This document shows, one piece after another, positions 801 to 18,983 of a stretch of 25,334 nucleotides of DNA (its first letter is position 1; every line of letters starts with the position of its first letter). A model generated the notes under the pieces. The model ran no database searches. It was given only the letters and a program-made list of their open reading frames with translations, and was not told where the DNA came from. The stretch covers positions 1 through 25,334 of IMG/VR virus record IMGVR_UViG_3300023198_000265, one strand, 5' to 3'. Source of the DNA: a virus. The position numbers were made by a program, and so were the translations under genes.

Positions 801-852
801 TAGTAGTAAAATAACGTTGTGGACGGCGGTTCGATTCCGCCCACCTCCACCA
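801..852 (+). ncRNA. tmRNA acceptor piece (P2 3' strand, T arm, CCA end)
   Basis: This 5'-most segment of the permuted gene carries the 3' end of the mature molecule. The T arm is GGCGG-TTCGATT-CCGCC, followed by the acceptor strand and an encoded ACCA. The GGAC just before the T stem matches the tetranucleotide at the same place in E. coli tmRNA. No anticodon arm or 5' half of a tRNA lies upstream, so an ordinary tRNA is excluded. The true 5' end is unknown and may lie inside the preceding gene. Confidence 0.85.
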
Positions 853-902
853 ATAGTATACCACACCACGCAATTAGAGCGGAAATGTCGTATATTACTG
901 AT
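853..902 (+). other. intervening segment of permuted tmRNA precursor
   Basis: Fifty bases separate the encoded CCA end from the first G of the acceptor stem. In known permuted tmRNAs the equivalent loop is removed by RNase P at the 5' end of the coding piece and by 3' processing of the acceptor piece. No ORF or promoter is seen in it. Confidence 0.7.
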
Positions 903-1014
903 GGGGGTGCCCAGGTTTCGACAGAGCGCGAAAGTGCTACTTAGAATTCGGTAAGGCTTAAGCCGTAATAGAAGCAAAAAACTAATTGACAATACATCAA
1001 TTAAAACAGAGAGC

Positions 1015-1074
1015 GCATTCCCTGCATTTGACGATGACATGGATTTCGCAATGGAATATGCACTAGCTGCATAA
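1015..1074 (+). other. tmRNA tag reading frame with stop (putative AFPAFDDDMDFAMEYALAA)
   Basis: The frame ending TAA at 1072-1074 encodes a peptide ending EYALAA, like the E. coli tag ending ENYALAA that ClpXP recognises. I placed the resume codon at GCA 1015. It lies 12 nt after the closing strand of a hairpin (984-989/997-1002, AATTGA/TCAATT) that could belong to pseudoknot PK1, close to the spacing in E. coli. A GCA at 1024 is the alternative and would give 16 residues. The body is unusually acidic (DDDMD). The stop is followed by a small hairpin, AGGC-ATA-GCCT (1084-1094), that may belong to P5. Confidence 0.65.
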
Positions 1075-1115
1075 GCCCTCTTGAGGCATAGCCTGCCTTA
1101 TTACCAAATTGGCTC

Positions 1116-2906: not shown

Positions 2907-3205
2907 TAAACCATCCCCTTGAACTACGCCCTGGTGCTTCTTATGTATTGGAACACCCAAATCCCTTATCAGAAGAAATAAAAACACGACTATTAAGCAA
3001 ATTATATAAACAAACTGAAAGATTGGGATGCAAATTTATTATACTAGATGCTGGACTAAAAATAGTGAGAGAAGTATATGGCGAGAGTGAAGAAGAAAGC
3101 GCACGAGAAGTTGAGCAAGGCGAATATACAACATGTAATTGGTTTATTAGATCCCTCAAACAAATCGAAAAAGATCTCAAAGAAGGACGCATGTCATATA
3201 CTTAA
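2903..3205 (+). CDS. hypothetical protein (100 aa)
   Basis: The start overlaps the preceding stop (ATGA), with a strong GGGGGG ribosome site at 2892-2897. The first 60 residues read like a genuine soluble alpha/beta protein (PGASYVLEHPNPL, then FIILDAGLKIVRE). The last 40 residues are charged and low in complexity, and they overlap the next gene for 128 nt in a different frame. I do not recognise the family. The reading frame may have been extended by loss of an earlier stop, or the two genes may truly share this DNA. Confidence 0.65.
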   Translation: MINHPLELRPGASYVLEHPNPLSEEIKTRLLSKLYKQTERLGCKFIILDAGLKIVREVYGESEEESAREVEQGEYTTCNWFIRSLKQIEKDLKEGRMSYT

Positions 3206-3752
3206 TATCGCATATAATACTACTAGACTACAGAAAATAATTGATGAACATCTCGAAGCAGAAGCCTTTATTACAAAAAGAAAGGCTCAAAATAGGGGCA
3301 AGAGGGCGACAGACGGGGAAATCCTTGAGGTTATTAGCGAATATCTTCAAGGAGAACCTATCTCTCAAATCGCCACAGGATTATACAGATCTGCAGGATT
3401 TGTCCGAGGAATTATCGACAGATTGGGAGTTCCTTTTAGACCGACTAATGCAGAAGAAAGAAGCCAAGTAGCTTTGTTACCAGACGCCTGTGTCAGAGAA
3501 GAATTTCGTACAGGAGCAATGGTTTGGAGCGCTAAGTATCACGCTCCAGCAGTAGTAAAACAATGCATTCCAGGATATGAAGATAAGTACGGATGTGAAG
3601 CATATCAGATATATGTTATAGAAAAGATAGATTCAGATGGGTCTTTTTTTGAATACGTACAAAGCGGGGGTTTCAACGCATATGCACTTGTTTATGACTT
3701 AGGTAGTTTAGAACATTTGACTCAATATGGAGTTAATTTAGATAAGATTTGA
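3078..3752 (+). CDS. putative HTH DNA-binding/regulatory protein (224 aa)
   Basis: The N-terminus is basic (RVKKKAHEKL). A helix-turn-helix-like stretch follows at about residues 35-55 (KKDACHILNIAYNTTRLQKI), then a second helical region (about 75-115, EILEVISEYLQGEPISQIATGLYRSAGFVRGII) that also has HTH character. The C-terminal half is a beta-rich domain of unknown type. I recall similar proteins in T4- and T5-like phages, but I cannot name the family precisely. Inference: a DNA-binding regulator of early or late transcription. The start at 3078 keeps the first HTH whole but overlaps the preceding gene by 128 nt. Later starts would cut into that motif. A consensus promoter follows its stop. 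Confidence 0.75.
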   Translation: MARVKKKAHEKLSKANIQHVIGLLDPSNKSKKISKKDACHILNIAYNTTRLQKIIDEHLEAEAFITKRKAQNRGKRATDGEILEVISEYLQGEPISQIATGLYRSAGFVRGIIDRLGVPFRPTNAEERSQVALLPDACVREEFRTGAMVWSAKYHAPAVVKQCIPGYEDKYGCEAYQIYVIEKIDSDGSFFEYVQSGGFNAYALVYDLGSLEHLTQYGVNLDKI

Positions 3753-4956: not shown

Positions 4957-5880
4957 ATGAAGAATTTGTTAGATCGAGCCTCTGAAGCCTACTACGCAGG
5001 CAACCCTTTTATGAGCGATGCAGAATTTGATATTCTGTCGTCTCATTTCGATTACAATATGGTAGGTCATAAAGTAACTGGCGGTCTAAGCCATTACTAT
5101 CCCTTGTATTCCCTACAAAAAATCTTTGATCTAAACGAAGCCCCTATTAATATAGATCTATGCGTTATAACCCCAAAATTGGATGGAGCAGCCATTTCCG
5201 TATTATATGTAAATGGACAGTATTCGTTGGCACTTACGAGGGGAGACGGTAAGATCGGTCAAGATATTACTAAAAATGTCTCCCATCTCGTACCAAACAA
5301 GTTAGGAGGTGGGGGTATTATTCAAATAACTGGAGAAGTGTTAGCTCCTAAAGCTATTACTAACTCCCGAAATTACGCCTCGGGTGCTCTGCAACTTAAA
5401 GACTTTGAAGAATTTAAGACGAGAGACTTACGCTTCGTAGCCTATGGAATGGAAGGCAATTTTAGTCATCCAACTTGGACTATGACAATGCAGAATTTAA
5501 TTAGTGAAGGTTGGAATACGGTATTAAACTTCGATGTTACAAACTACCCAACAGATGGTACTGTCTATAGAGTTGACGAATATTCTAAGTTTAACAATTT
5601 CGGATATACTTCCAAACACCCCAGAGGTGCATTTGCCTTTAAAGTACAAGCAAAAGGTATTCCAACTACACTATTAGACGTAGTGTGGCAAGTAGGAAAA
5701 TCAGGTGTAATAAGCCCAGTAGCAATTCTAGAGCCAATATTTATTGGTGATGCAAAAGTATCTAGAGCCACCTTACATAATATTAAGTACATAAATGATC
5801 TAAATTTAGAAATAGGTTGTACAGTCGGAGTGATTCGTAGTGGTGAAGTTATACCCAGAGTAGTGGAGAGATTGGATTGA
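4957..5880 (+). CDS. ligA: NAD-dependent DNA ligase, N-terminal part (adenylation + OB domains, 307 aa)
   Basis: This seals nicks using NAD. The first 50 residues resemble domain Ia, which binds the NMN moiety (AYYAGNPFMSDAEFD). The adenylated lysine is Lys74 in TPKLDGAAIS (KxDG motif). Further ligase motifs are TRGDGKIGQDIT, TGEV, RNYASGAL, KHPRGAFAFK, and the OB-fold signature VGKSGVISPVAILEPIFIGDAKVSRATLHN through RSGEVIPRV, here in two readable blocks. The protein stops just before where the zinc finger begins in bacterial LigA (about 670 residues); those domains are encoded separately at 6135. T5 ligase is split in the same way. An own promoter and AGGACA ribosome site precede the ATG. 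The two proteins presumably assemble into one enzyme. Confidence 0.93.
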   Translation: MKNLLDRASEAYYAGNPFMSDAEFDILSSHFDYNMVGHKVTGGLSHYYPLYSLQKIFDLNEAPINIDLCVITPKLDGAAISVLYVNGQYSLALTRGDGKIGQDITKNVSHLVPNKLGGGGIIQITGEVLAPKAITNSRNYASGALQLKDFEEFKTRDLRFVAYGMEGNFSHPTWTMTMQNLISEGWNTVLNFDVTNYPTDGTVYRVDEYSKFNNFGYTSKHPRGAFAFKVQAKGIPTTLLDVVWQVGKSGVISPVAILEPIFIGDAKVSRATLHNIKYINDLNLEIGCTVGVIRSGEVIPRVVERLD

Positions 5881-6077
5881 CTGTAGAGCATCATGATGTA
5901 GAACCCTACTCAATAAGTTATGATTTGCAAGGTTTTATAGAAGAATTAAGACATATCTTTGAGTCAGAAGGTAAAGCCGCTCCGAAATTAAGAAGATTAG
6001 AGCGAGCTGTAGACCAAGCAGAAAAATATGCTATAGAATATGGACATCTTCCTAGAAAACAAGCTGTCAAAAAATAA
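5877..6077 (+). CDS. hypothetical protein between ligase halves (66 aa)
   Basis: This is a helical, charged small protein (FIEELRHIFESEG, then KLRRLERAVDQAEKYAIEYG) without recognised domain. It starts at a TTG that overlaps the ligase stop (TTGA), with GAGAGA about 8 nt upstream. No in-frame ATG exists near the start, so TTG is the likely initiator. Its position in the split ligase suggests either a ligase-associated accessory protein or simple insertion. The next promoter begins directly after its stop. Confidence 0.6.
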   Translation: MTVEHHDVEPYSISYDLQGFIEELRHIFESEGKAAPKLRRLERAVDQAEKYAIEYGHLPRKQAVKK

Positions 6078-6080
6078 TTC

Positions 6081-6109
6081 TTGACATTTATCTTAAAATT
6101 TCATATAAT
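6081..6109 (+). promoter_or_regulatory. perfect-consensus sigma70 promoter (TTGACA-17-TATAAT)
   Basis: Both hexamers match the consensus exactly (6081-6086 and 6104-6109) with 17-bp spacing, in the ATTCTTGACATTTAT context. The start is expected near 6116, just before the ribosome site of the ligase C-terminal gene. A match this good should be very strong in a host with a typical sigma70. Confidence 0.92.
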
Positions 6110-6134
6110 ATATATTCTGAGAAAAGGAAATTAA

Positions 6135-6881
6135 GTGAGACTAATTATACCACCTGAATTTTGCCCTAGCTGTGGTTCAGCTTTAAAATGGCAGAATGAT
6201 CTATTATACTGTAGAAACACTTCATGTGGAGAGCAGTTGGGCAAAAAGATTGAACACTTTGCAAAAAGTTTAAAGATAAAAGGATTAGGCCCAGCAACAC
6301 TATCTAAGCTAGAACTTAATTCTATAGCTGATTTGTACTTTTTAGAAGAAATGGATTTATCAAAATATATAGGCTCAGATCGCATGGCAGAAAAGCTGTG
6401 CAAAGAAATACAAAATTCGGAAAAAGTAACCTTAAATAGATTACTACCCGCATTTGCAATACCGTTAGTAGGTAACTCAGTGTCTGAAAAACTCGCCACT
6501 GTCTGTCATAATATAAGTGATATTGATGACGATACATGCAGACAAGCAGGACTCGGGCCAAAGACCACTAGCAATTTACTAGATTGGATAGAAGATAACG
6601 CAGCTCTTATAGACGAACTGCCTTTCAGCTTCAACTTCGAGAAACCTAGACTTACCGGCAATATGGGAGTTGTGTGTATCTCTGGTAGGTTAAAGAGTTA
6701 TAAAACAAAGGCTGAAGCAACAGACGTTCTACAAAAACTAGGTTATACCGTTAAATCTAGTGTAACGAAGGATGTAACTATCCTTATCAATGAAAGTGGG
6801 ATAGAATCCGCTAAAACCAAACGCGCCAGAGATGCTGGCATAACTATAGTAACGAATCTAAAAGATTTTATTGGAGAATAA
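6135..6881 (+). CDS. NAD-dependent DNA ligase, C-terminal part (Zn finger, HhH, BRCT, 248 aa)
   Basis: This provides the DNA-binding domains of LigA. A four-cysteine zinc finger lies at residues 10-31 (CPSC at 10-13, C26, C31). Helix-hairpin-helix repeats follow (IKGLGPATLSKL, IPLVGNSVSEKL, AGLGPKTTSNLL), and a BRCT domain occupies about residues 175-248 (VVCISGRL, then LGYTVKSSVTKDVTILI). Together with the protein at 4957 it covers a complete bacterial-type ligase in the correct order. It begins with GTG behind AAAAGGA (6122-6128) and has its own consensus promoter. This makes independent expression of the two halves possible. The end lies 4 nt before the D5-like gene start. Confidence 0.93.
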   Translation: MRLIIPPEFCPSCGSALKWQNDLLYCRNTSCGEQLGKKIEHFAKSLKIKGLGPATLSKLELNSIADLYFLEEMDLSKYIGSDRMAEKLCKEIQNSEKVTLNRLLPAFAIPLVGNSVSEKLATVCHNISDIDDDTCRQAGLGPKTTSNLLDWIEDNAALIDELPFSFNFEKPRLTGNMGVVCISGRLKSYKTKAEATDVLQKLGYTVKSSVTKDVTILINESGIESAKTKRARDAGITIVTNLKDFIGE

Positions 6882-6885
6882 TATT

Positions 6886-7611
6886 ATGGCACTTCCTAAA
6901 TGGAATGACGAACGAGAAAGTATCCTTACCGAATTTGTCGGTGATGAAAGCCCTGTAAGCCAAGAAACAGTAGCGGGTGCTGCTGAAGTTCTTGAAACCT
7001 CAACACGCTCTGTATCGAGCAAACTGCGTAAAATGAAATTTGAAGTAGAACTTGCTTCTGCTCGTGCACACCGTTCTTACAGTGACGAAGAAGCTGCAAC
7101 TCTTGCTGCTTTTGTAACTGATAATAGTGGTGAGTACACTTATGCTCAAATCGCTAAAGTATTTGCTGACGGCAAATTTACGCCTAAATCAATTCAAGGT
7201 AAAATTCTTTCCCTTGAACTTACCGATCACGTTAAAGCAGCTCCTAAGCCTGTAAACGTGCGTACTTACACACCAGAAGAAGAAGAAATCTTTGTCGACA
7301 TGGTAAATGCTGGTGAATTCATTGAAGCTATCGCTGAAAAACTTGGACGTACTGTAAATAGTATTCGTGGTAAAGCTCTTAGCTTGCTACGTTCAAATGA
7401 TATTGAAGCATTCCCCCGTCAAGAGTTCACTAAAGGTTCTACCCGTCAAGATCCTCTTACAGAACTTGGTGATGTTTCCGAGATGACTGTCGAAGCTATT
7501 GCGGAAGCAATTGAGAAGACTGAGCGTGGTGTTAAAACTATGCTTACCCGCCGTGGTTTAGTTTGCGCTAACTACGATGGAGCAACTCGAAAAGCTAAAG
7601 CTAGTAAGTAA
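6886..7611 (+). CDS. D5-like DNA-binding protein, three Myb/SANT-like repeats (241 aa)
   Basis: The sequence resembles phage T5 D5, an abundant dsDNA-binding protein needed for replication and late transcription. Repeating helical units are visible: LPKWNDERESILTEFV, then RSYSDEEAATLAAFV, then RTYTPEEEEIFVDMV. Each is followed by a recognition-type helix (TRSVSSKLRKM, PKSIQGKILSL, VNSIRGKALSL), with a fourth, weaker unit ending ERGVKTMLTRRG. I chose ATG 6886 (GGAGAA upstream) over TTG 6871. Codon choice (CTT, GCT, CGT) is clearly more biased than in neighbours, as for a highly made protein, and a strong terminator follows. It is probably cotranscribed with the ligase C-terminal gene from 6081. 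Confidence 0.85.
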   Translation: MALPKWNDERESILTEFVGDESPVSQETVAGAAEVLETSTRSVSSKLRKMKFEVELASARAHRSYSDEEAATLAAFVTDNSGEYTYAQIAKVFADGKFTPKSIQGKILSLELTDHVKAAPKPVNVRTYTPEEEEIFVDMVNAGEFIEAIAEKLGRTVNSIRGKALSLLRSNDIEAFPRQEFTKGSTRQDPLTELGDVSEMTVEAIAEAIEKTERGVKTMLTRRGLVCANYDGATRKAKASK

Positions 7612-7628
7612 TCCTTATTAGTTAGAAT

Positions 7629-7663
7629 AACAACCCTCGGAGCAATTCTGAGGGTTGTTTTAC
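7629..7663 (+). terminator. rho-independent terminator after D5-like gene
   Basis: AACAACCCTC (7629-7638) pairs with GAGGGTTGTT (7650-7659) across an 11-nt loop, followed by TTTA. The stem is 10 bp and lies 18 nt after the stop codon. Confidence 0.88.
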
Positions 7664-7682
7664 GTCTGTAATATTTACAGAC
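7664..7682 (+). promoter_or_regulatory. perfect 8-bp inverted repeat before the helicase gene
   Basis: GTCTGTAA (7664-7671) and TTACAGAC (7675-7682) flank a 3-base centre. As DNA it could be an operator. As RNA it would place a hairpin about 25 nt before the helicase ribosome site. No consensus promoter is seen next to it. Confidence 0.45.
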
Positions 7683-7720
7683 AACGTGGTCTTGCAACCA
7701 TATTGATCGGGGGATCATCA

Positions 7721-9076
7721 TTGAATATTGCTAGTGCGTTAATAAAACAGATACTCGACTTACAGGACTTTGAGACCTGGAGTTCAGTTCGTGAGCACTA
7801 TCTACCCTCCGAATACCATATCTTATTTAATACAATTGATAAGCATTGCTCTAATAATCATAAATTACCCACTTTTGAGGAATTGAAGTTCGAAATTCGT
7901 GATGTTAGTACGAAAGAAAAACTGTACGCTATAGAATCTATTGAAGTAGAAGCAGAACCAGAGATGCTACTTCAGTACTTAAAAAATGAATTTACTCAAA
8001 AAGAGATATTAAATCGTGCGGAAGATTTTGTAGAAAATTCAGTCGCATTTGAAGATGCAGAAGAATCCTTAGCACATTTACATCAAATTGTATTAGACGT
8101 AGAAGCGTTAGTAGACTTAGAAAAACCCCAAGAAAGTATGGGACGTATTGAATTATTCGCAGACAAAGAAGAATATAGTAAATACCTTGCCCTCGGGCTT
8201 AATGCAGATTTCGATCTTTCACATCAGTTCGGCCCCCGTGATCTGATTCTGATTGGTGGATTTCGAGGGCAAGGTAAGTCTATTCTATGTTCTAATATTG
8301 CGGTTAATATATACGATCGTGGTAGGTCCTCGGTTATGTATTCTACTGAAATGGATAAACGTACCGTTTTACAACGTAACTGTGCAATCGCTACGGGTGT
8401 GGATTATGGTCGCTTAAAGTTTCAGAATTTAAATAAAACAGAGTGGGAGAAAGTAGCTGCTTGGTGGGCTGGACGTTTCCAAGATAGTCAAAGTATCTTT
8501 GAAAATTATTTAGATCATAGAGATTTTACTAAATTCCATAGTACATTAATTGATGAATCAGAATTAAGACCAGAATGTCAATTAGATGTAGTTTATGATC
8601 CTAATCTAACTATTCCTAAAATAAATTCTGATCTTGATAAGAAGATGAAAGGTGGGATGGATATTGGAGTAATCATAGTAGATTATTTAAATAAAGTTAA
8701 ACTTAGTGCAACTCCTTCTAAGCGTGGTGCATTTGATTGGATTGAACAAATCGAAGTAAGTACTGCATTGAAAGCAATAGCAGCAGAATTTGAAAGACCT
8801 TTAGTATCTCCGTTCCAAATAGATAAGCAAGGAGAAGCTAGATTTTCAAAAGGTATTCATATTGATGCTGATGCTGTATATAACTTAAAAGCAGATAAAG
8901 GAGATAATCCTTGTATTAAGTTAACCTGTGAGAAAATGAGAGATGGCCCTGAGTTAAATTTCACATCTGTTATGGATTGGAGTTCATTGAAGTTAGGACC
9001 CGAATCTACAGTTCATCCAGAGGATATAGTAGATAGTGATGAAAAAACAGGGGAAGAAATTAACGATGGTTTCTGA
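7721..9076 (+). CDS. replicative DNA helicase, DnaB/RecA-type (451 aa)
   Basis: A hexameric helicase that unwinds the fork ahead of the polymerase. The N-terminal 150 residues are helical, with a DnaB-like role likely in primase contact. The RecA-type core carries Walker A GGFRGQGKS at about residues 179-187, a DnaB-like segment YSTEMDKRTVLQR, and a Walker B-like IGVIIVDYLNKV. Towards the end come PFQIDKQGEARFSKG and a KADKG segment in the place of the DnaB arginine-finger region. I chose the TTG at 7721, preceded by GGGGGA at 7709-7714. The longer frame would start inside the preceding terminator. There is no strong promoter directly upstream; transcription by read-through is plausible. Its stop is followed by a promoter. 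Confidence 0.87.
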   Translation: MNIASALIKQILDLQDFETWSSVREHYLPSEYHILFNTIDKHCSNNHKLPTFEELKFEIRDVSTKEKLYAIESIEVEAEPEMLLQYLKNEFTQKEILNRAEDFVENSVAFEDAEESLAHLHQIVLDVEALVDLEKPQESMGRIELFADKEEYSKYLALGLNADFDLSHQFGPRDLILIGGFRGQGKSILCSNIAVNIYDRGRSSVMYSTEMDKRTVLQRNCAIATGVDYGRLKFQNLNKTEWEKVAAWWAGRFQDSQSIFENYLDHRDFTKFHSTLIDESELRPECQLDVVYDPNLTIPKINSDLDKKMKGGMDIGVIIVDYLNKVKLSATPSKRGAFDWIEQIEVSTALKAIAAEFERPLVSPFQIDKQGEARFSKGIHIDADAVYNLKADKGDNPCIKLTCEKMRDGPELNFTSVMDWSSLKLGPESTVHPEDIVDSDEKTGEEINDGF

Positions 9077-9093
9077 AACTTAAAAAATAATAC

Positions 9094-9122
9094 TTGACAT
9101 TTAGGTTAGATTTTAGTATAAT
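9094..9122 (+). promoter_or_regulatory. perfect-consensus sigma70 promoter (TTGACA-17-TATAAT)
   Basis: TTGACA at 9094-9099 and TATAAT at 9117-9122, with a 17-bp spacer, in the ATACTTGACATTTAGG context. The expected start near 9129 leaves a 31-nt leader with AAAGAGGGAG before the small gene at 9160. It would drive the small-gene cluster, primase and polymerase. Confidence 0.9.
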
Positions 9123-9159
9123 ATAGAATAGAAAAAGTTATAGAAAGAGGGAGATAATT

Positions 9160-9324
9160 ATGGAGGCATTAATAATATACTTAGTAGTAATAATTGGCGC
9201 TATATTATTAGCAGCCTTTCTACATTGGGGTTATAAAAGAGATATGGAAATTTGTAAAAAATGCAATTACCATAGATTGAGGTGTACTTGTGTTAAATTT
9301 GGAAGATACGATGCGTCTAATTAG
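9160..9324 (+). CDS. small membrane protein with Cys cluster (54 aa)
   Basis: ATG at 9160 follows a strong ribosome site (AGAGGGAG, 9146-9153) and the promoter at 9094. Residues 4-24 form one transmembrane helix (LIIYLVVIIGAILLAAFLHWG). A basic tail follows with CKKCNYHRLRCTC, two closely spaced CxxC/CxC groups that might bind zinc or iron on the cytoplasmic face. The frame ends TAG at 9322-9324, overlapping the next ATG. I do not recognise a family. As first gene after a consensus promoter it is probably well expressed. Confidence 0.7.
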   Translation: MEALIIYLVVIIGAILLAAFLHWGYKRDMEICKKCNYHRLRCTCVKFGRYDASN

Positions 9325-9535
9325 ATTTATGATGACTAATCTAGCCTTATTTACATTAGTAGTTATACTAGCATTTGCATATTCTCCTGATGATCCTAAT
9401 AATTGGGAATTATCTACTACTAATATGACAGAAGCTAGAAATTTTGTGCAAGATTGTAAAAGACAGGGTGGAATATCTACATCTAATATTAAAGATCGGG
9501 TAGCAACTCTGCATTGTAAATTAGGGAGATGGTAA
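9311..9535 (+). CDS. small membrane or secreted protein (74 aa)
   Basis: ATG at 9311 has GGAAGA at 9301-9306. A longer GTG start at 9290 is possible but lacks a better site. The N-terminus (RLIRFMMTNLALFTLVVILAFAYS in outline) is a basic end plus hydrophobic helix at about residues 8-23, acting as a signal peptide or anchor. The 45 residues beyond hold two Cys (DCKRQGG and LHCKLGRW), which could form a disulphide in the periplasm. Its function is unknown. It overlaps the preceding gene by 14 nt, and its stop overlaps the next ATG (TAATG). Confidence 0.65.
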   Translation: MRLIRFMMTNLALFTLVVILAFAYSPDDPNNWELSTTNMTEARNFVQDCKRQGGISTSNIKDRVATLHCKLGRW

Positions 9536-9639
9536 TGTTTGACAGTTTAATTCGTGAATGTGTTTGTGACGTACTTTACTATGTAGAATTTTATGGTTGT
9601 GAAGATTCTATTTTTGATTTTTTCTGGTTTTGGTTATAG
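9535..9639 (+). CDS. hypothetical micro-protein (34 aa)
   Basis: ATG at 9535 overlaps the previous TAA and has GGGAGATGG just upstream. The product is Cys- and aromatic-rich (CVCDVLYYVEFYGC, then IFDFFWFWL) and acidic. It could insert into the membrane with its hydrophobic C-terminus. The good ribosome site and exact stop-start overlap support translation; function cannot be inferred. Confidence 0.5.
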   Translation: MFDSLIRECVCDVLYYVEFYGCEDSIFDFFWFWL

Positions 9640-9644
9640 AGACA

Positions 9645-9866
9645 ATGGAACGTAAAGAAGCAATAAAAATGGCTGAAAAAGCCATGCTACATCATAGACC
9701 TGCTCGTTGTGAGATAGGCAAAGTTTTGAGTGAAGCACTAGAAAAATTAAATGAAATAGAAGCCGCAGTAGAGCAATTACGGTATTCTATGCATCCAGTA
9801 ATAGATCGAAAAGCAGTACAAAACTTATTAGATTTATTTAATGTAGAGACCGCACAAGTTAAATGA
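9645..9866 (+). CDS. hypothetical helical protein (73 aa)
   Basis: This is a fully helical, charged soluble protein: KEAIKMAEKAML, then LSEALEKLNEIEAAVEQL, then AVQNLLDLF, with amphipathic spacing suggesting a small coiled-coil or helical bundle. I do not recognise it. I chose the ATG at 9645 instead of 9630 because the latter overlaps the preceding micro-protein more. The ribosome site is weak in both cases (TAGAGA). Its stop overlaps the primase ATG (ATGA), placing it in the replication operon, possibly as an accessory factor. Confidence 0.65.
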   Translation: MERKEAIKMAEKAMLHHRPARCEIGKVLSEALEKLNEIEAAVEQLRYSMHPVIDRKAVQNLLDLFNVETAQVK

Positions 9867-10690
9867 AAGTAGAAGAACTACTAGAGTCTAAGAATATTGA
9901 CTATCTTCCTAAGGGTGGGGACTTTGAAGTCCGTTGCCTAAATCCTGAACACGAGGATAAACATCCTAGTCTAAGAATAGATAAAATAACTGGGATTTTT
10001 AATTGTTTTTCCTGTGGATTTAAAGGCAATTTATTCACCCACTATGGGGAACGGATAAACCATTTGCAACAAAAAAGAGAGCTTCTGATAAAGAGAATAA
10101 AGGCAAAGCTTGCAGAAAGTATTGGTTTATCCTTCCCCCAGAATCGTGTACCCTATGAGGGCGACTGGAGAGGAATTAGTCCTGAAACTTATAAGTATTT
10201 TGAGGCGTTTACATGCCATGATAAACCTTATGCAGAGAGAATTTTATTTCCTATTAGAGACGTTTCAGGCCGAATTGCCGCGTTTAATGGAAGGCATACA
10301 AGCGGCGGAACGCCCAAATATCTAATTAGTCCTGCTGGAGCTAAGATGCCTTTATTTCCGCAAGTTACTCCAATCATGGGGAGTGTAATACTTGTGGAAG
10401 GTTTATTTGATATGTTAAATCTCCATGATAAAGGATTAACCAACGCAGTTTGCTGTCACGGCACACGAAACATTAATGAGGACAAATTGTCTATGCTTCG
10501 TATTCAAGGAGTAGATAATGTAGACGTTTTCTTTGACGGTGACGACCCCGGACAGGAAGCCGCAGTAATTGTAAAAAATATATGTGATGCTATGGGTATG
10601 ATGACAAGAAACATTCATTTAGCGGGTAAAGACCCAGGTGAATTGACTGAAAATCAGGTCCATGGATTAATGAGGAAATTATATGCCTAA
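9863..10690 (+). CDS. DNA primase, CHC2 zinc finger + TOPRIM (275 aa)
   Basis: This makes RNA primers for lagging-strand synthesis. A CHC2 zinc finger lies at residues 25-51: C25, H30, C48, C51. Basic helical stretches link it to a TOPRIM fold, with FNGRH and PKYLIS motifs typical of phage primases, then VILVEGLFD (catalytic Glu-Gly) and VFFDGDDPGQEA (the acidic DxD-like motif). At 275 residues it is much shorter than DnaG (about 580) and has no helicase-binding domain, as in T5-type primases. The start overlaps the previous stop, and the stop overlaps the polymerase start, so translation is coupled. Confidence 0.9.
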   Translation: MKVEELLESKNIDYLPKGGDFEVRCLNPEHEDKHPSLRIDKITGIFNCFSCGFKGNLFTHYGERINHLQQKRELLIKRIKAKLAESIGLSFPQNRVPYEGDWRGISPETYKYFEAFTCHDKPYAERILFPIRDVSGRIAAFNGRHTSGGTPKYLISPAGAKMPLFPQVTPIMGSVILVEGLFDMLNLHDKGLTNAVCCHGTRNINEDKLSMLRIQGVDNVDVFFDGDDPGQEAAVIVKNICDAMGMMTRNIHLAGKDPGELTENQVHGLMRKLYA

Positions 10691-12950
10691 AGTTGCATTA
10701 GTAGAAACTAAACCTTCACGAAATGATTATAAAGAGCTATTTCAAAATGAATTTGCCTTTGATTCTTACCATTTGTGTTCAGATGCTAATATTAAGAAAG
10801 TCTTAAAGAAAGACTGTGATATTAATATTGATCTAGATGCTTACGACTATATTATTCTAGTAGGTAGCGATGCTTTAAAGTACTTTACCAAACTGAACGC
10901 AGTTACCACATATACAGGAAAGAAAATAGAAGATAAGTTCCTGGCTACTATCAACCCCGCAATGTTAGCCTTTAAGCCGGAGGCTCGTAGTACTTGGGAA
11001 CGCTCTAGAGATTCCATTATTGGGTATATTAATGGAACTCTTATAGATACTGTTATTGATGATACTATTGCTATAGGCATTGATACGGCAGAAGAAGCAA
11101 AAGCTTTCATACTTGACGCTATTAAGGACCCTCACCCTTATGTAGCACTAGACTCTGAAACTACCGGTCTATATCCTAGAGATGGGTATATTCAAGGTTT
11201 ATCTTTATGTTATGATGGTAAGAAAGGTGCATATATCAATGCGAATTGTGTTGATGAAACAGTAGAAAAACTATTGGCGAACTTATTTAAGAAAAAGACT
11301 GTAATCTTTCACAATGCTAAGTTCGATCTCGCGTTCTTCGAGTATCATTTCAATTTTGAATTCCCGCACTTTGAAGATACAATGCTTCTACATTATATTA
11401 TTGATGAAGTTCCCGGTACACATGGGTTGAAACAACTTTGTATGAGGTTTACTCAATATGGGGATTATGAAAAGCCAATGTATGATTGGATTGAATCATA
11501 TCGTAAACAGCACGGTATTTTAAAGAACGATTTCCGTTGGGGTGACATTCCATTCGAAGAAATGTATACCTATGCAGCTATGGATGCTCTAGTTACCTTC
11601 ATACTTTTTGAGAAATTCGTAAGAATTAAGCAAAATAAACGCTTATGCAAAGTTTATGACGAAATTCTTATTCCTGGTACCCGCTTCCTAACAGATATGC
11701 AAGATAATGGTGTACCAGTCGATAAATCACGACTTCTTAAAGCTCAATGTCTAATGCAACAGGATATTGATGAAGCTATAGCTAAATTATACACACATCC
11801 CGAGGTATCAGAGTTTGAAACTTTTCAAGGCAAAGATTTTAATCCTAATAGTGTGCTCCAGTTACGCACTCTATTGTTTGACTTTTTGGGATTACAACCA
11901 ACCGGCAAGAAAACAGGTACCGGGAAGGACTCTACAGATAAGGAAGTTTTAGCACAACTTGCTTCACAGCATGGAGTTCCACAACTCATTTTAGATATTA
12001 GACAGAAGTCTAAAATTAAAAATACTTATTTAGACAAGATTTTCCCTCAATTAGATCGGGACAGTCGGCTGCGCACTGGATTTAACATACATACAACTAC
12101 TTCGGGCCGCTTAAGTAGTAGTGGTAAGTTAAATATGCAACAACTTCCACGCGATAATCCTATTGTCAAGGGCTGTATCATGGCAGCTCCTGGGCATAAG
12201 ATTGTTGCCATGGATTTAACCACTGCTGAGGTGTACGCGGCCGCTGTTCTTTCTGAGGATGAAGCTTTAATGGATATAATCCGCCAAGGGGGTAATTTCC
12301 ATAGTCAGATTGCTAGAAAAGTATTTAGACTAGACTGTGAGGCAGAGGATGTGGCGGATATATACCCAACACAACGTCAAGCTGCTAAAGCTGTAACATT
12401 CGGTATTATGTATGGAGCTGGAGCAGCTAAGATCAGTGAACAAGTTACACATGACTCTGGCAAATATTTTAGCAAAAATGAAGCACAAGAGGTTATTGAT
12501 GACTACTTCAGAAGTTTCCATAAACTTAAAACATGGATTGAGAAAAACAAGAAATTCATCGAACAAAATGGGTTCATTTATTCCTATTTTGGACGAAAAC
12601 GCAGATTGCCTAATGTTGCTTCAAAAGATCGCGGAATCAAAGGGCATGAAGTTAGATCAGGACTTAATTTCCTCGTGCAATCAGTGGCTTCAGACATCAA
12701 TCTCTTAGGGGCTATTGATACACACAATGCTTTAAAAGTAAAAAGTATGAAAGCAAAAATATTTGCTCTAGTACATGACTCAATTTTAGCAGAAGTGCCA
12801 GATGAAGAAGTAGAAGACTACTGTGCAATTCTATTACAGAATGTACAAAAAGACAGAGGCTTATCAATTCCAAACCATCCTGTGGGTTGTGATTTTGATA
12901 TAGGACAGGATTATTCAATGGGTAAATATGAAAAACTCTACGGAAAGTAA
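10683..12950 (+). CDS. DNA polymerase, family A with 3'-5' exonuclease (755 aa)
   Basis: This is the replicative polymerase, related to T5 and E. coli Pol I. Residues 1-120 form an extra N-terminal domain, not the Pol I 5' nuclease; its IILVGSDALKYF resembles uracil-DNA glycosylase-like folds. The proofreading domain has Exo I D157/E159 (ALDSETTGL), Exo II D215 (FHNAKFDLAFF) and Exo III Y297/D301. Motif A is MDLTTAEVYAA (D511, E516), differing from DYSQIELR. Motif B is RQAAKAVTFGIMYG (R565, K569, F573, Y577), and motif C is ALVHDSI (D699). F573 in place of T7's Tyr predicts discrimination against dideoxynucleotides. All catalytic residues are present. GAGGAA (10671-10676) precedes the ATG. 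Confidence 0.95.
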   Translation: MPKVALVETKPSRNDYKELFQNEFAFDSYHLCSDANIKKVLKKDCDINIDLDAYDYIILVGSDALKYFTKLNAVTTYTGKKIEDKFLATINPAMLAFKPEARSTWERSRDSIIGYINGTLIDTVIDDTIAIGIDTAEEAKAFILDAIKDPHPYVALDSETTGLYPRDGYIQGLSLCYDGKKGAYINANCVDETVEKLLANLFKKKTVIFHNAKFDLAFFEYHFNFEFPHFEDTMLLHYIIDEVPGTHGLKQLCMRFTQYGDYEKPMYDWIESYRKQHGILKNDFRWGDIPFEEMYTYAAMDALVTFILFEKFVRIKQNKRLCKVYDEILIPGTRFLTDMQDNGVPVDKSRLLKAQCLMQQDIDEAIAKLYTHPEVSEFETFQGKDFNPNSVLQLRTLLFDFLGLQPTGKKTGTGKDSTDKEVLAQLASQHGVPQLILDIRQKSKIKNTYLDKIFPQLDRDSRLRTGFNIHTTTSGRLSSSGKLNMQQLPRDNPIVKGCIMAAPGHKIVAMDLTTAEVYAAAVLSEDEALMDIIRQGGNFHSQIARKVFRLDCEAEDVADIYPTQRQAAKAVTFGIMYGAGAAKISEQVTHDSGKYFSKNEAQEVIDDYFRSFHKLKTWIEKNKKFIEQNGFIYSYFGRKRRLPNVASKDRGIKGHEVRSGLNFLVQSVASDINLLGAIDTHNALKVKSMKAKIFALVHDSILAEVPDEEVEDYCAILLQNVQKDRGLSIPNHPVGCDFDIGQDYSMGKYEKLYGK

Positions 12951-12957
12951 TGAAGCA

Positions 12958-13101
12958 ATGGAGAAATTGGGTTGGTTTCCGATCGAATATACAGATTTAG
13001 TAGAATTAATAACTACGGAAGCTCCAATAGTTGTAACCAGCAAAGGTATGCAGCTTTATTTCAAAAACGAAGATGTATCTGAACTATCGACAGATAAGTA
13101 A
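12958..13101 (+). CDS. hypothetical protein after polymerase (47 aa)
   Basis: This small acidic protein (LGWFPIEYTDLVEL, then APIVVTSKGMQLYFKNED) fills what would otherwise be a gap between polymerase and the next gene. GGAAAG at 12941-12946 supports the ATG at 12958. An in-frame ATG at 12928 inside the polymerase end would give 57 residues. The end overlaps the following gene by 29 nt. The sequence reads like a real beta-containing fold, but no family is recognised. Confidence 0.55.
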   Translation: MEKLGWFPIEYTDLVELITTEAPIVVTSKGMQLYFKNEDVSELSTDK

Positions 13102-13567
13102 GGTTACATTCCCAGTATATGCATTGCCTAGCGATGATTGGCATAGCCAAGATGGTCTACTATATGTAAATGGGCAAATAGTAGACGATAAAAACATGTC
13201 TGGGGAGACTTTGGGTATACGAAGATTACAGACATATTTTAAGGATTTATTACCTTTAAAGTACACAATCAATACGTTTGTGGCTTTATTAAAGCAAGGA
13301 AAGAGATATTATATTGACAGTGCAGGAAAGTGTTTTATTTATCAAAAAACTAAATTCTGCCAATTAAAATATTATCCCATTAAGAGAATAGATAAACACG
13401 ATACTTATTGTATTTTAAGACTACATGGAGTTAATTTTCCGTTTACAATACCCCGTCCTCCTAAGGCGGGGTTTAATTGGGCTGGAGTTCTTCATCTAGA
13501 CGGACTACCTTGGTTGCTCTATGATTACGCTGATAAGAAAACAAAGCCTACAAGAAGAAAGATATGA
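13073..13567 (+). CDS. conserved phage hypothetical protein (164 aa)
   Basis: This soluble, aromatic-rich protein starts inside the preceding small gene. Its two alternating beta halves each contain a similar pattern: YALPSDDWHSQDGLLYVNG near the start and LHLDGLPWLLYDYADK near the end. The middle holds a KFCQLKYYPIKRI stretch followed by RLHGVNFPF. It lies between polymerase and D10-like helicase and shares an ATGA overlap with the latter, so a replication role is suggested by position only. A 7-bp GC-rich hairpin with TTT tail (13451-13474) lies within its coding sequence. Confidence 0.7.
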   Translation: MYLNYRQISKVTFPVYALPSDDWHSQDGLLYVNGQIVDDKNMSGETLGIRRLQTYFKDLLPLKYTINTFVALLKQGKRYYIDSAGKCFIYQKTKFCQLKYYPIKRIDKHDTYCILRLHGVNFPFTIPRPPKAGFNWAGVLHLDGLPWLLYDYADKKTKPTRRKI

Positions 13568-14853
13568 AAGCAGTTCTGAGTAATAGAATTTATATGGACT
13601 GTACTAAGCAGTATCGTGATTATCTGAATGAGGAGCTTACGTATATAATTCCGAGCTATAATCCACAAGACCCTCCTCAAGTTATAAAGAATATGGCAAG
13701 GATTCGAGATACGTTAGTAAGTCTACCTGTAGGACGTACGGATTTAATACCAGACGATTATGAAATTGTTAATAGACGTATATTAGTACCCGCAGAACTT
13801 CCAGAATTTAAGTTCACTTTACGCGACAGCCAACAGAAGGTATATAACTCAGTCGAGGACAACTGTATAATTAACGCACCACCTAGTTGGGGAAAGACTT
13901 TTACAAGTTTAGCAATAGCCAATAAGCTAGCTCAGAAAACATTAGTTGTAACACATAATGTAAATCTAAGAAACCAGTGGGCAGATGAAGTAAAATATAC
14001 TACGGGGATTATGCCAGGTCTGATAGGTAGTGGAAAATTTGAAATTGACCATCCTATTGTTATTGGTAATGTACAAACTTTATATAAGAATATTCCCGCT
14101 ATAAAGAAAGCATTTGGGACTATTATACTCGATGAAATGCATCATGTATCAGCAGCAACTTTTTCTCGTATAATAGATGCTAGTCAGGCTCGTTATAAAA
14201 TAGGTTTATCAGCAACTATAAAAAGAAAGGATGGAAAGCATGTAGTATTTAGAGATTACTTTGGACATAACATTATTAAAGTACCGAAGGAAAACATGAT
14301 GACTCCTTCGATAGATATTATAAGACCACCTATTAGATTCCCAGATGGAGCGCGAACTCCTTGGGCTAATAGAGTAACTGCGCTGACTCAAAATCATGAA
14401 TATATTCATCTGATTTCCATGCTAGCGGCCGCCTACGCGGCAAAAGGGCATAAGGTCCTGGTAGTGAGTGATCGCACCGCTTTTCTTCGTTCCTGCACCG
14501 AATTAGTAGGTGACACTGCAGTTTGTGTTATCGGAGAGGTAGACCCGCAAGACCGAAAAATTTTACAGAATCAAATTTTAACTGGAGAAAAACAGGTATT
14601 ATTCGGCACTCAAGCAATTTATGCCGAAGGGATTTCAATCAATTCACTATCCTGCCTTATTCTAGCAACTCCGTTAAATAACGACCCCTTACTAGAGCAA
14701 TTAGTAGGTCGTGTATGTAGAGAACGTGAAGGAAAATTAAACCCTAAAGTAGTAGATATACACTTAATAGGGCATACTGCACGTAGACAAGCTTCAGCTA
14801 GAATGGGCTACTATATGCGGGAGGGCTATCATATACAAGAAATCTCTTCGTAA
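13564..14853 (+). CDS. SF2 DNA helicase, T5 D10 / UvsW-like (429 aa)
   Basis: An ATP-dependent helicase of the kind that remodels forks and branched DNA. Motif Q-like region FTLRDSQQKVY (about 84-94) precedes Walker A APPSWGKT (105-112). Motif Ia is TLVVTHNVNLRNQW, motif II is the DExH-type LDEMHH (190-194), and motif III is SAT (216-218). The second RecA lobe has HKVLVVSDR, YAEGISINSLSCLILATP, and motif VI QLVGRVCRERE with the arginine finger. The length suits T5 D10-like helicases. The start overlaps the previous stop (ATGA), with AAGAAGAAAG as ribosome site. Its stop is followed within 30 nt by a consensus promoter. Confidence 0.92.
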   Translation: MKAVLSNRIYMDCTKQYRDYLNEELTYIIPSYNPQDPPQVIKNMARIRDTLVSLPVGRTDLIPDDYEIVNRRILVPAELPEFKFTLRDSQQKVYNSVEDNCIINAPPSWGKTFTSLAIANKLAQKTLVVTHNVNLRNQWADEVKYTTGIMPGLIGSGKFEIDHPIVIGNVQTLYKNIPAIKKAFGTIILDEMHHVSAATFSRIIDASQARYKIGLSATIKRKDGKHVVFRDYFGHNIIKVPKENMMTPSIDIIRPPIRFPDGARTPWANRVTALTQNHEYIHLISMLAAAYAAKGHKVLVVSDRTAFLRSCTELVGDTAVCVIGEVDPQDRKILQNQILTGEKQVLFGTQAIYAEGISINSLSCLILATPLNNDPLLEQLVGRVCREREGKLNPKVVDIHLIGHTARRQASARMGYYMREGYHIQEISS

Positions 14854-14881
14854 AAGAGGTATTACAAGTAAAAAATAGTTC

Positions 14882-14910
14882 TTGACATTTCTGGCTAAAT
14901 TTGGTATAAT
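14882..14910 (+). promoter_or_regulatory. perfect-consensus sigma70 promoter (TTGACA-17-TATAAT)
   Basis: TTGACA at 14882-14887, a 17-bp spacer and TATAAT at 14905-14910, in the GTTCTTGACATTTCT context. Start expected near 14917. Unlike the other four, its -10 abuts the ATG of the next gene (14912). It lies upstream of the ssDNA-binding protein and the nuclease genes. Confidence 0.88.
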
Positions 14911-14911
14911 A

Positions 14912-15319
14912 ATGATTCTATATAATTGGCAAAAAATATTTAAAGCAGCAGATGGAAATGCTGTGGAGTGTTGGCGAATCTTCAAAATGCTAGCACGGAG
15001 TGAGATTCCCCGAAATAAGTATGATATGATATACTATTACTCATCTATGAACTTTCGAGGAGATTCATTTTTATTGCACGAGGACGTGCTACTATTTAAT
15101 AGTTACAAATACAATACCTATGATCTATGTGTATATTTAGCGTTAGCTTCTTTGCGATCGCTAGCAGAGTATAAAGCATCGGGAAAAGTCACTCTTGACC
15201 TTACCCATACTAAATTAGATCCTAGGAAACACTTAGATGACCCAAGCCTGTTACCTATAAAGGATGGTCATATTCACTTTCCCTACGAGGAAAGTCCAAG
15301 CAAAAAGGAGTTACATTAA
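14912..15319 (+). CDS. conserved T5-like phage protein of unknown function (135 aa)
   Basis: A helical, aromatic-rich protein: LYNWQKIFKAADGNAVECWRIF in outline, then MIYYYSSMNFRGDSFLLHEDVLLFN and VYLALASLRSLAEYKASGK. I believe the family recurs beside ssDNA-binding protein genes in T5-like phages, but I know no function. Start choice is a problem. ATG 14912 gives the family-like N-terminus but lies 5 nt upstream of the predicted transcript start from 14882. Either upstream read-through mRNA translates it, or the protein begins later (for example GTG 14963, near GATGGA). Its stop overlaps the next ATG (TAATG). Confidence 0.75.
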   Translation: MILYNWQKIFKAADGNAVECWRIFKMLARSEIPRNKYDMIYYYSSMNFRGDSFLLHEDVLLFNSYKYNTYDLCVYLALASLRSLAEYKASGKVTLDLTHTKLDPRKHLDDPSLLPIKDGHIHFPYEESPSKKELH

Positions 15320-15948
15320 TGGCATTATCATTTAATCAGAGTAAAGGCTCTGCTATCAAAAACACAATAGATTCTTACAAGTGGGTTAACGGTGAAAACG
15401 TTGTCCGTATTGTAGGAGATATTTTACCTCGTTACGTTTATTGGATTAAAGGGGAGAACGATAAGAACATCCCTATGGAATGTTTATCTTTTGACCGTGA
15501 AGCCGAAGCTTTTATTAACAAAGAAAAAGATTGGGTGCGTGAGTTTTATCCCGCTGAAAAATGCACTTGGAGCTACGCTACTCAATGCCTGTTCGAAGGT
15601 AAAATCATTGTTCTTAACTTGAAGAAAAAACTATGGGAGCAAGTTATTACTGCTGCCGAGGATCTCGGAGATCCTACAGATTTGGATACAGGTTGGGACT
15701 TACGAGTTCTTCGTAAGAAAACGGGCCCACTAGCGTTTAACATAGAGTATCAATTACAGGCTCTTAAATGTAAATCTCGTTCTCTCTCAGAGGAAGAACG
15801 TGAATTATTAAAAGATCTTAAGTCTATGGACGAAGTTATGCCTCGTCCTACCGCAGACGCTCAGAAAGAGCTTCTTGACCGTATTACTGGAAAAGGTAAA
15901 GAAAATACGGATGATGAAGCCCTTGACGCAGAGTTTGACGTAGACTAA
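15319..15948 (+). CDS. single-stranded DNA-binding protein, gp32-like OB fold (209 aa)
   Basis: This coats ssDNA during replication and recombination. The beta-rich core includes ENVVRIVGDILPRYVYW, then NIPMECLSFDRE and EKDWVREFYP, then KCTWSYATQC and GKIIVLNLKKKLWEQV, features shared by a phage ssDNA-binding family. The C-terminal 20 residues are strongly acidic (DDEALDAEFDVD), the usual partner-binding tail of SSBs. Lys/Arg and aromatic residues are spread over the strands. AAGGAG (15305-15310) gives a strong ribosome site. Codons are more biased than those of neighbours (CTT, CGT, GCT), and a terminator follows, both consistent with abundant product. I saw no T4-style zinc motif. Confidence 0.82.
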   Translation: MALSFNQSKGSAIKNTIDSYKWVNGENVVRIVGDILPRYVYWIKGENDKNIPMECLSFDREAEAFINKEKDWVREFYPAEKCTWSYATQCLFEGKIIVLNLKKKLWEQVITAAEDLGDPTDLDTGWDLRVLRKKTGPLAFNIEYQLQALKCKSRSLSEEERELLKDLKSMDEVMPRPTADAQKELLDRITGKGKENTDDEALDAEFDVD

Positions 15949-15959
15949 ACCAAACCGCG

Positions 15960-15990
15960 GCGGGGTTATAGCTAACCCCGCTGCTTTCTT
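15960..15990 (+). terminator. rho-independent terminator after ssDNA-binding protein
   Basis: GCGGGGTTA (15960-15968) pairs with TAACCCCGC (15973-15981) across TAGC, followed by TGCTTTCTT. The 9-bp stem is strong, but the U-tract is interrupted, so partial read-through into the nuclease genes is likely. Confidence 0.85.
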
Positions 15991-16011
15991 CGACTTTTAA
16001 AAGAGGCTTAT

Positions 16012-16950
16012 ATGATTTTATTCACCGCCGATTGGCACCTTAAACTAGGCCAAAAGAATGTTCCTTTGGCCTGGGCAGCTAATAGATATGCGGATTTCTT
16101 CAACCAAATTCACGCAATAGAATCACAAGTTGACTTACATATAATTGGAGGCGACATATTCGATCGTCTTCCTAGTATGGAAGAATTAGCGTTATATTTT
16201 AAATTTATAGCTAATGTTAAAGTCCCTACTCTTATATTTGATGGAAATCATGAAGCCACAAAAAAGAATCAAACATTTTTTACTTATTTAAAAGAAGCTA
16301 CTACTAAAGTCAATCCTTTAGTAGAAATTATAACTTATTGCTATGTTGATAAAGAAAGAAAATTCAGTATATTACCCTATTGTAAACTCCACAAAAAGGG
16401 GGCATGGAGTACTTTGCGCCCTGATTGGCCACTGTTTACGCATGTGCGTGGTGAAATTCCTCCACATGTTAAACCGGAAGTCGACTTGGAAAGGTTTGCG
16501 CACTTCCCTATTGTATTCGCAGGGGATTTGCATGCCCACTCAAATACACAACGAAATATCGTATACCCTGGAAGCCCGCTTACCACCTCCTTTCATAGAT
16601 CGGAAGTCGAAACAGGATACATCTTAATTGAGGACGATTGGAGTTGGAATTGGCATAAGTTTGCTTTACCTCAATTAATTAGAAAAACAGTACAAAATCC
16701 CGTAGAAATGATAGCTACAGATTATCATCATACTGTTTACGAATTAGAGGGAGACTTATTAGATTTGGCAAATGTCAAAAATTCAGACCTTTTAGATAAG
16801 AAAGTAGTAAAACGAAGCACTGAAGCAGCCTTAGTATTGGCTAAAGATATGGACATATCGGCGGAATTAGTAGAGTATTTCACATATATATTAGAATTAT
16901 CAGAGTACAAAACTGAAAGTATAATGGGAACCTTCCATGATTACACTTAA
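16012..16950 (+). CDS. SbcD/Mre11-like exonuclease subunit (T5 D12-like, 312 aa)
   Basis: The nuclease subunit of a phage SbcCD-type complex, acting on DNA ends and hairpins with the ATPase encoded next. It has the five calcineurin-like phosphoesterase motifs: TADWHL (D7, H9), GGDIFDR (D48), FDGNHE (N79, H80, E81), FTHVRG (H144) and GDLHAHS (H174, H176). These would bind two Mn ions. The C-terminal 90 residues form the capping region and ATPase contact. In T4 the pair is gp47/gp46, in T5 D12/D13. AGAGG (16001-16005) is the ribosome site. It overlaps the next gene by 14 nt, keeping subunit production coupled. Confidence 0.93.
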   Translation: MILFTADWHLKLGQKNVPLAWAANRYADFFNQIHAIESQVDLHIIGGDIFDRLPSMEELALYFKFIANVKVPTLIFDGNHEATKKNQTFFTYLKEATTKVNPLVEIITYCYVDKERKFSILPYCKLHKKGAWSTLRPDWPLFTHVRGEIPPHVKPEVDLERFAHFPIVFAGDLHAHSNTQRNIVYPGSPLTTSFHRSEVETGYILIEDDWSWNWHKFALPQLIRKTVQNPVEMIATDYHHTVYELEGDLLDLANVKNSDLLDKKVVKRSTEAALVLAKDMDISAELVEYFTYILELSEYKTESIMGTFHDYT

Positions 16951-18733
16951 AAAACTGACTTGGGGTACGGCATTTAGATTCGGAGAAGATAATTGTATTC
17001 AGTTAGATAATGCTACACTTACTCAAATTTTAGGGGATAATGGATTAGGAAAGTCCTCTATCCCTTTAATTTTAGAAGAAGTTTTATTCAACAAAAATTC
17101 TAAACCAGTAAAGAAAGCCTCTATTCCTAATAGAATATATAACCAAGGATACTGGATAAATCTTACCTTTCAAGTAGATAATGATGAGTATGAGATTAAT
17201 GTAACTCGTAAGAATAGTATCAAAGTGAAGCTATTTAAAAATGGAGCGGATATCTCCAGTCACACAGCTACTGGTACGTATAAAACTATTCAAGAAATTA
17301 TAGGCGCAGATTTCAAAACATTCTCACAGTTAGTATATCAGAATCCAAAGGCTAGTTTACAATTTTTAACTGCTACAGATACTAACCGTAAAAAATTCTT
17401 AATTGATCTTTTACATTTAGAGAAGTATGTTACCTTATTTGAAATTTTTAAAGAGGCGGCTAAAGAGGTAAATATAGAAACTGCTGAGTTTGAAGCTAAG
17501 GTAGCAACCATTGAAAAATGGTTGGTAAATAATAAATTGACAGACACTACCATACTTCCTATGCTAAATTTAGATATAGACACGGATGAAGATGAGAAGC
17601 TCGCGCGTGAATTAACAACAGAAATTACAAATATTTCGCAGAAAAATAAAAAAATAACTAAAAATAGACAGTATAAGAAACTACTTGACGCTATTGATCT
17701 AAATGAAATAAATAGTAGTAAAGTGAAACAATTAGAATCTTACGATCCTCTACAAAAGGAAATGGGTGCTTTAGAATCTAAAAAATCCGCATCCGTACAG
17801 TTAGTAGATAGATTGAATAGACTAGAAGATGTATGTCATATTTGTGAACAAAACATAAACCCAGAATTTAAAGCTAATTTAATTAGTATAGAAACGAAGA
17901 AATTTGCAGAATCTAAAGAGCAAATTAAAAAACTAAAGAGACAAATAAATGAAATCAAGAAAGACAACTTTGAGTACACGCGTATCAACAAGCTTCAAAA
18001 AGATTGGGAAGATTTGTATCGTAGTGTGGACGTATCTCTACCTACGATTTTACTGGATGTTGATGAGTTTAGAACCAGGTTGGCTAGCGTACAGGACAAG
18101 TTACAGAAGGCTAAGAGCCAAATGGCTGATACAGCACGAGAAAACCAAGATAGAACCAAGCGAAATACAAGAATACAAGTCATACAGGAGCAAACTGACG
18201 AATTCATCAGAGAGTTAAATACTATTACCAATTCTCTAGATAAACGCAGAGACCTACTATCTAATCTAGAAATGTTAAAGAAAGCATTCAGTACAAATGG
18301 ATTGCTAGCGTATAAGATAGAGAATGGCGTTAAAGACTTGGAAATGCTAGTAAATGAATATTTATCAGAGTTAGCAGATGGGAGGTTTACTTTAGAATTT
18401 GTACTTTCTAATGATAAACTTAACGTACTTATTACAGAGGATGGTGACACTGTAGATATTACAGAGTTATCTTCTGGGCAACTTACAAGAGTCAATACAG
18501 CCACGCTATTAGCGATACGAAAACTTATGAGTAGTATTTCTAAGTCTAGAATCAATGTGCTATTCTTAGATGAAGTTATATCAGTGTTGGATGCTGATGG
18601 TAAAGAGAAATTAGTAGAAGTACTTCTACAAGAAAAGGATCTAAATACATATGTTGTTAGTCATGGGTGGGAGCACCCGTTGTTAGAGAAAATAACAGTA
18701 GTAGATCGAAATAAAATTAGCGAATTGGAGTAG
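16937..18733 (+). CDS. SbcC/Rad50-like ATPase subunit (T5 D13-like, 598 aa)
   Basis: An SMC-type ATPase that controls the SbcD-like nuclease. Walker A LGDNGLGKSS occurs at about 33-41. Two helical arms are rich in Lys/Glu/Asn (about 155-290 and 310-450), joined by a zinc-hook-like CHIC (C300, C303). The ABC signature ELSSGQ lies at 510-515, Walker B NVLFLDEV at about 540-547, and a His switch SHGWEH at about 575-580. At 598 residues it is close to T4 gp46 and T5 D13, and about half of E. coli SbcC, so the arms are short. All catalytic motifs are intact. The start ATG overlaps the upstream gene. Confidence 0.93.
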   Translation: MITLKKLTWGTAFRFGEDNCIQLDNATLTQILGDNGLGKSSIPLILEEVLFNKNSKPVKKASIPNRIYNQGYWINLTFQVDNDEYEINVTRKNSIKVKLFKNGADISSHTATGTYKTIQEIIGADFKTFSQLVYQNPKASLQFLTATDTNRKKFLIDLLHLEKYVTLFEIFKEAAKEVNIETAEFEAKVATIEKWLVNNKLTDTTILPMLNLDIDTDEDEKLARELTTEITNISQKNKKITKNRQYKKLLDAIDLNEINSSKVKQLESYDPLQKEMGALESKKSASVQLVDRLNRLEDVCHICEQNINPEFKANLISIETKKFAESKEQIKKLKRQINEIKKDNFEYTRINKLQKDWEDLYRSVDVSLPTILLDVDEFRTRLASVQDKLQKAKSQMADTARENQDRTKRNTRIQVIQEQTDEFIRELNTITNSLDKRRDLLSNLEMLKKAFSTNGLLAYKIENGVKDLEMLVNEYLSELADGRFTLEFVLSNDKLNVLITEDGDTVDITELSSGQLTRVNTATLLAIRKLMSSISKSRINVLFLDEVISVLDADGKEKLVEVLLQEKDLNTYVVSHGWEHPLLEKITVVDRNKISELE

Positions 18734-18736
18734 ATT

Positions 18737-18979: not shown

Positions 18980-18983
18980 CAAT

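Follow-up and report, generated by a model that had tools for sequence, protein, structure and literature searches.

Two-Piece tmRNAs in Phages and Bacteria

tmRNA rescues stalled ribosomes and adds a tag to the incomplete proteins on them. A two-piece tmRNA was described in the methylophage Melnitz by Buchholz et al. 2022 (PMC9004378). In the same study, 402 phages with tmRNA accounted for 133 unique tmRNA structures, 53 of which were two-piece by ARAGORN, and marine or aquatic samples were the source of 50 of these 53 structures (PMC9004378). A tmRNA database paper of 2025, in which the RF04321 family was built, reports 79 unique phage tmRNA sequences (PMC11915505). Permuted two-piece tmRNAs are common in viral contigs, and in IMG/VR one restrictive search pattern matched at least 119 stretches.

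The window, that is, the whole stretch of DNA analysed here, is an entire IMG/VR virus record, linear and 25,334 bases long. Like Melnitz, it holds a phage-borne, permuted, and complete ssrA with a tag frame. However, Melnitz, a myophage, has T4-like features, and its ssrA was grouped by the authors of that study with the alphaproteobacteria, whereas the window is T5-like and its gene fits best as beta-type. In addition, the Melnitz ssrA was reported with a glutamine riboswitch, whereas no riboswitch was found in the window by Rfam search. The Stenotrophomonas phages DLP6 (KU682439) and Marzo (MZ326868) share with the window a gene called as permuted by ARAGORN and the same type of acceptor and T arm, but they belong to other phage groups, and their tags are shorter, at 13-14 aa. 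The DLP6 gene (L124, 1440-1783) lacks an annotation in the deposited record. Betaproteobacterial ssrA (RF01850) resembles the window's gene in its permuted order, TTCGAC-type D loop, TTCGATT T loop, and similar PK1 and resume region; it differs in being cellular and in having a tag of about 10 aa, and with the RF01850 model a Rhodocyclaceae genome scores 231.8 bits versus 66.1 for the window.

According to the preliminary description of this DNA, a permuted, two-piece tmRNA in a T5-like phage is not known to have been described. Two-piece phage tmRNAs as such are not new, being published (PMC9004378) and common in viral contigs, but the narrower point stands: no paper on a permuted tmRNA in a T5-like phage was found in the literature covered, which includes few subscription papers. 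To the known systems, the locus adds its T5-like setting, a mixture of gene forms in the T5-like group, and a 28-residue tag initiated with Asp.

A Fragment of a T5-Like Phage

The record is a fragment of a T5-like (Demerecviridae-like) phage; T5-type virion genes and long terminal repeats are absent from its 25.3 kb. A T5-like replication module occupies 4957-23082 on the plus strand and comprises a split NAD ligase, a DnaB-like helicase, primase, PolA, a further helicase, SSB, SbcD, SbcC, a RusA-like resolvase, an exonuclease, and ribonucleotide reductase. The two halves of the NAD-dependent ligase lie at 4957-5880 and 6135-6881. The closest isolate polymerases are T5-like and about 44% identical, and the closest isolate ligases are T5-like too; together with the split ligase of the module, these polymerases bear out the earlier naming of the phage as T5-like. 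No phage isolate matched the window by megablast. Closer polymerases are held by hundreds of viral contigs, the best 80 of them at 71-74%.

Structure of the Permuted Gene

A covariance search of the whole window with Rfam release 15 returned one family above its curated cut-off, tmRNA_permuted (RF04321), which matches at 791-1074 with 100.6 bits (E 8.2e-19) against a cut-off of 47 bits. Independently of Rfam, ARAGORN called a permuted tmRNA at 760-1165. For calibration, 150 Pseudomonadota genomes were searched with the same model, and their scores fell into two groups, one of 113-168 bits and one of 65 bits or less. The lower group is the range of weak matches by one-piece genes, and the window's score is nearer to the upper group; E. 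coli and other control genomes whose tmRNA gene is one-piece scored below the cut-off only. The preliminary description had proposed a phage-borne tmRNA with circularly permuted gene order and had named a covariance-model search and ARAGORN among the means of checking it; both agree with the proposal. It had placed the gene at 801-1100, and the features are where it put them, although the gene is somewhat longer, the match starting at 791 and a terminal hairpin reaching 1165. The window holds a real and intact-looking permuted tmRNA gene of the two-piece form.

The acceptor half is upstream of the 5' half. It spans 791-852 on the plus strand (RF04321, ARAGORN, and pair check) and consists of a P2 helix strand, GGAC, the T arm, the acceptor 3' strand, the discriminator A, and an encoded CCA at 850-852. 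A 50-nt spacer follows at 853-902, after which the 5' half starts on the same strand with the acceptor 5' strand GGGGGTG (903-909), the D-loop analogue GGTTTCGAC, and the beginning of P2 (903-928; RF04321 and pair check). In the acceptor stem, CACCUCC (followed by ACCA) pairs with GGGGGUG at 7 of 7 positions, G3-U70 included, and the T arm at 825-841, GGCGG-TTCGATT-CCGCC, is canonical with 5 of 5 stem pairs (pair check and covariation). This order of the halves, the acceptor pairing, the T arm, the GGAC which precedes it, and GGTTTCGAC after the acceptor 5' strand had all been pointed out beforehand, and all are present. Farther downstream, a PK1-like region (948-978, plus strand) contains a CGG...CCG stem, aligned by RF04321, with a loop GCUU whose complementarity to a downstream AAGC suggests a pseudoknot. 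At 1116-1165, a perfect 10-bp hairpin (GCCCTCGGCC/GGCCGAGGGC, plus strand; fold -24.4 kcal/mol) without a T run is likely the structure at the 3' end of the coding piece; the ARAGORN gene also ends at 1165.

The 12 acceptor and T-stem pairs were compared across four T5-like loci (the window, L121, L167, and L284). All 48 cells are paired, compensatory changes on both sides occur in 6 of the 12 pairs, and the G-U at acceptor pair 3 is invariant in all four loci. When the partner was shifted by 1-3 columns as a control, pairing went down to 46-60%.

The spacer, whose removal from the precursor is predicted, forms a hairpin extending the acceptor stem. Its folding energy of -11.3 kcal/mol compares with -5.5 ± 2.2 in dinucleotide shuffles, of which 10 in 500 fold as stably, and the spacers of L121 and L284 likewise fold back onto the acceptor stem. 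This hairpin would hold both ends together for processing, with cuts predicted by homology at 852/853 and 902/903. Cofolding of the two halves gave no single stable picture of the whole RNA, and reliance is therefore placed on the covariance model. In a sigma-70 promoter scan, no convincing candidate emerged for the tmRNA gene.

Tag Peptide

The predicted tag, DNTSIKTESAFPAFDDDMDFAMEYALAA, has 28 residues and an ALAA end, a degron of the hydrophobic AA type, and is read on the plus strand from the resume codon GAC at 988 to the stop TAA at 1074 (ARAGORN, with the frame checked). In the Rfam alignment, this GAC falls on the resume codon of the RF04321 family, after UAANN. The tag was compared with those of 83 distinct viral permuted tmRNAs. 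This set was mostly gathered by patterns which fix part of the acceptor stem, so acceptor positions invariant in it prove nothing. The tag ends in LAA in 68 of the 83, a majority which the ALAA end of the window fits. Conversely, a tag starting with Asp is found in 2 of the 83, and GAC is a rare resume codon, which weighs against a functional reading. Another viral permuted tmRNA, L138, has the predicted tag DNNYEMEDYALAA, which also starts with Asp. Tag length in the set ranges from 8 to 33 residues, with 10 the commonest and 20 or more in 11 of the 83, so the length of 28 residues is unusual but not unique. Tags of 22-33 residues are predicted in the viral permuted tmRNAs L003, L031, L017, L019, L079, L108, and L136. 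The idea that a long tag is a phage-specific trait was rejected, as the alphaproteobacterial gene L180 reads about 22 codons.

T5-Like Relatives

In the record of L121, which is collinear with the window and whose polymerase is 67% identical, a permuted tmRNA precedes the homologue of the window's gene 3078-3752 by 0.4 kb; in the window, the distance to this gene is 2 kb. In L167 (polymerase 50%), the permuted tmRNA lies among tRNAs and is likewise upstream of this gene. A further permuted tmRNA, L284, occurs in a 101-kb T5-like record (G199) and scores 92.7 bits as alpha-type. Its spacer of about 150 nt (1563-1713) contains a small, very basic ORF which extends into the tmRNA's 5' half and is accompanied by a ribosome-binding-like AAGGAG. 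By contrast with these permuted genes, the record which holds L122 carries a standard one-piece tmRNA in a tRNA cluster (L201, G004:C1:7300-8400, 202-536; RF00023, 98.1 bits). This gene was missed by ARAGORN, and by eye its tag ends in ...EYALAA.

The remaining T5-like records searched gave no tmRNA match; they are mostly fragments, and about 20 of them, as worked out by hand from coordinates, extend at least 4 kb upstream of the 3078-3752 homologue. The tmRNA gene is sporadic in T5-like phages and its forms are mixed, namely, permuted beta-type, permuted alpha-type, and one standard. This distribution points to repeated capture or replacement, and the alpha-type L284 and the standard L201 genes speak against one acquisition in a common ancestor of T5-like phages. 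No SmpB match was obtained in three T5-like tmRNA records, mostly fragments, in a search which detected its positive control; therefore, the SmpB of the host is presumably used. T5-like phages are in this way added to the groups which carry a two-piece tmRNA. Comparison of relatives that carry the gene with those that lack it, and of relatives with different tags, makes the use of tmRNA by phages testable.

Subtype and Origin

Among the subtype models, beta_tmRNA (RF01850) is the closest, but its 66.1 bits are below the curated cut-off of 84, so the gene is not assigned as a member; this shortfall weighs against the reading as a functional permuted gene. The alpha_tmRNA model (RF01849) gives 40.1 bits, also below its cut-off of 50. 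In a tree of 115 genes, the 29 from cellular alphaproteobacteria group together as a clade (100/99), which excludes the window's gene; the latter is placed with phage and betaproteobacterial genes. The tree rests on 153 columns and has long branches, so that deeper placement is unsure; one clade uniting three T5-like genes was not recovered in it and was not rejected either (AU p 0.29). Judged from these comparisons, the window's copy is on the betaproteobacterial/phage side.

The preliminary description had suggested either acquisition from a bacterium with a permuted ssrA or convergent permutation. The form of the gene suggests capture from a lineage whose ssrA is permuted (66.1 bits as beta-type versus 40.1 as alpha-type). 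Convergent permutation need not be invoked, since the gene fits a model built on cellular permuted genes. An origin from cellular alphaproteobacteria was considered and rejected, because the gene scores lower with the alpha model and lies apart from the cluster of 29 cellular alphaproteobacterial genes (100/99).

Proposed Function and Alternatives

The locus is very probably a functional permuted (two-piece) ssrA gene of a T5-like phage, whose host is probably an aquatic proteobacterium. One precursor would be transcribed from it. Host RNase P would act on the 5' side, at 903, and the 3' processing machinery of the host would expose the encoded CCA at 852; both trims together would remove the 50-nt spacer hairpin. 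The acceptor piece and the coding piece would then be kept together by the acceptor and P2 helices. The RNA could be charged by the host alanyl-tRNA synthetase via G3-U70 and delivered to stalled ribosomes by host SmpB. There, the ribosome would resume on GAC and add the 28-residue tag, whose ALAA end would address the protein to host ClpXP/ClpAP. During an infection with cut or decaying messages, the phage may benefit in that ribosomes are recycled and broken proteins degraded.

The same gene could instead be a decaying passenger, a fragment of host ssrA captured by chance which has lost its function. The sporadic occurrence of tmRNA in the T5-like group and the score under the beta_tmRNA cut-off would suit such a history, but all 12 tRNA-domain pairs have been kept, relatives show compensatory changes in them, the 28-codon tag frame is open all the way to its ALAA end, and both halves are intact, with CCA and D-loop motif; this explanation is quite improbable. 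Slightly less credit is due to a decoy role, in which the phage RNA, by competing for SmpB or AlaRS of the host, would block trans-translation there. Such a role has been proposed for the RNA of mycobacteriophage DS6A, which consists of a tRNA domain only; a similar RNA of this kind strongly inhibits tmRNA, perhaps via SmpB titration (PMC4131195; also PMC11915505). However, a decoy has no need of the full tag frame and stop which are kept here. Least probable of all is that the gene is the relic of an integration site, an attachment-site copy of ssrA left by a temperate ancestor. An attachment relic normally consists of one gene end only, whereas here both halves are complete, and the surrounding module is that of virulent T5-like phages, with no integrase among the gene families identified in the window; in its favor, ssrA often serves as a site of integration (PMC4383910, PMC11915505).

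Beyond the preferred reading of a functional phage ssrA, it may be speculated, with considerable doubt, that T5-like aquatic phages repeatedly acquire and exchange tmRNA genes of the permuted beta-type, permuted alpha-type, and standard forms and that the phage's own extended acidic tag of 28 residues replaces host tagging in infection. If this were true, an own tag would let the phage set which proteins get degraded, or how.

Other Genes of the Fragment

Directly downstream of the tmRNA, an i-spanin and an overlapping o-spanin (phrog_739 and phrog_812) are encoded at 1182-1917 on the plus strand, and a lysozyme gene is also present on the fragment. The i-spanin (1182-1550) is most like a protein of the Methylophilales phage Melnitz, with about 45% identity; no tmRNA is annotated in the Melnitz region shown around the i-spanin-like gene. 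On the minus strand, an ORF of 638 aa at 23288-25204, for which no PHROG match was obtained, contains collagen-like stretches (GPTGPTGPDG) and repeated modules and is perhaps a tail fibre.
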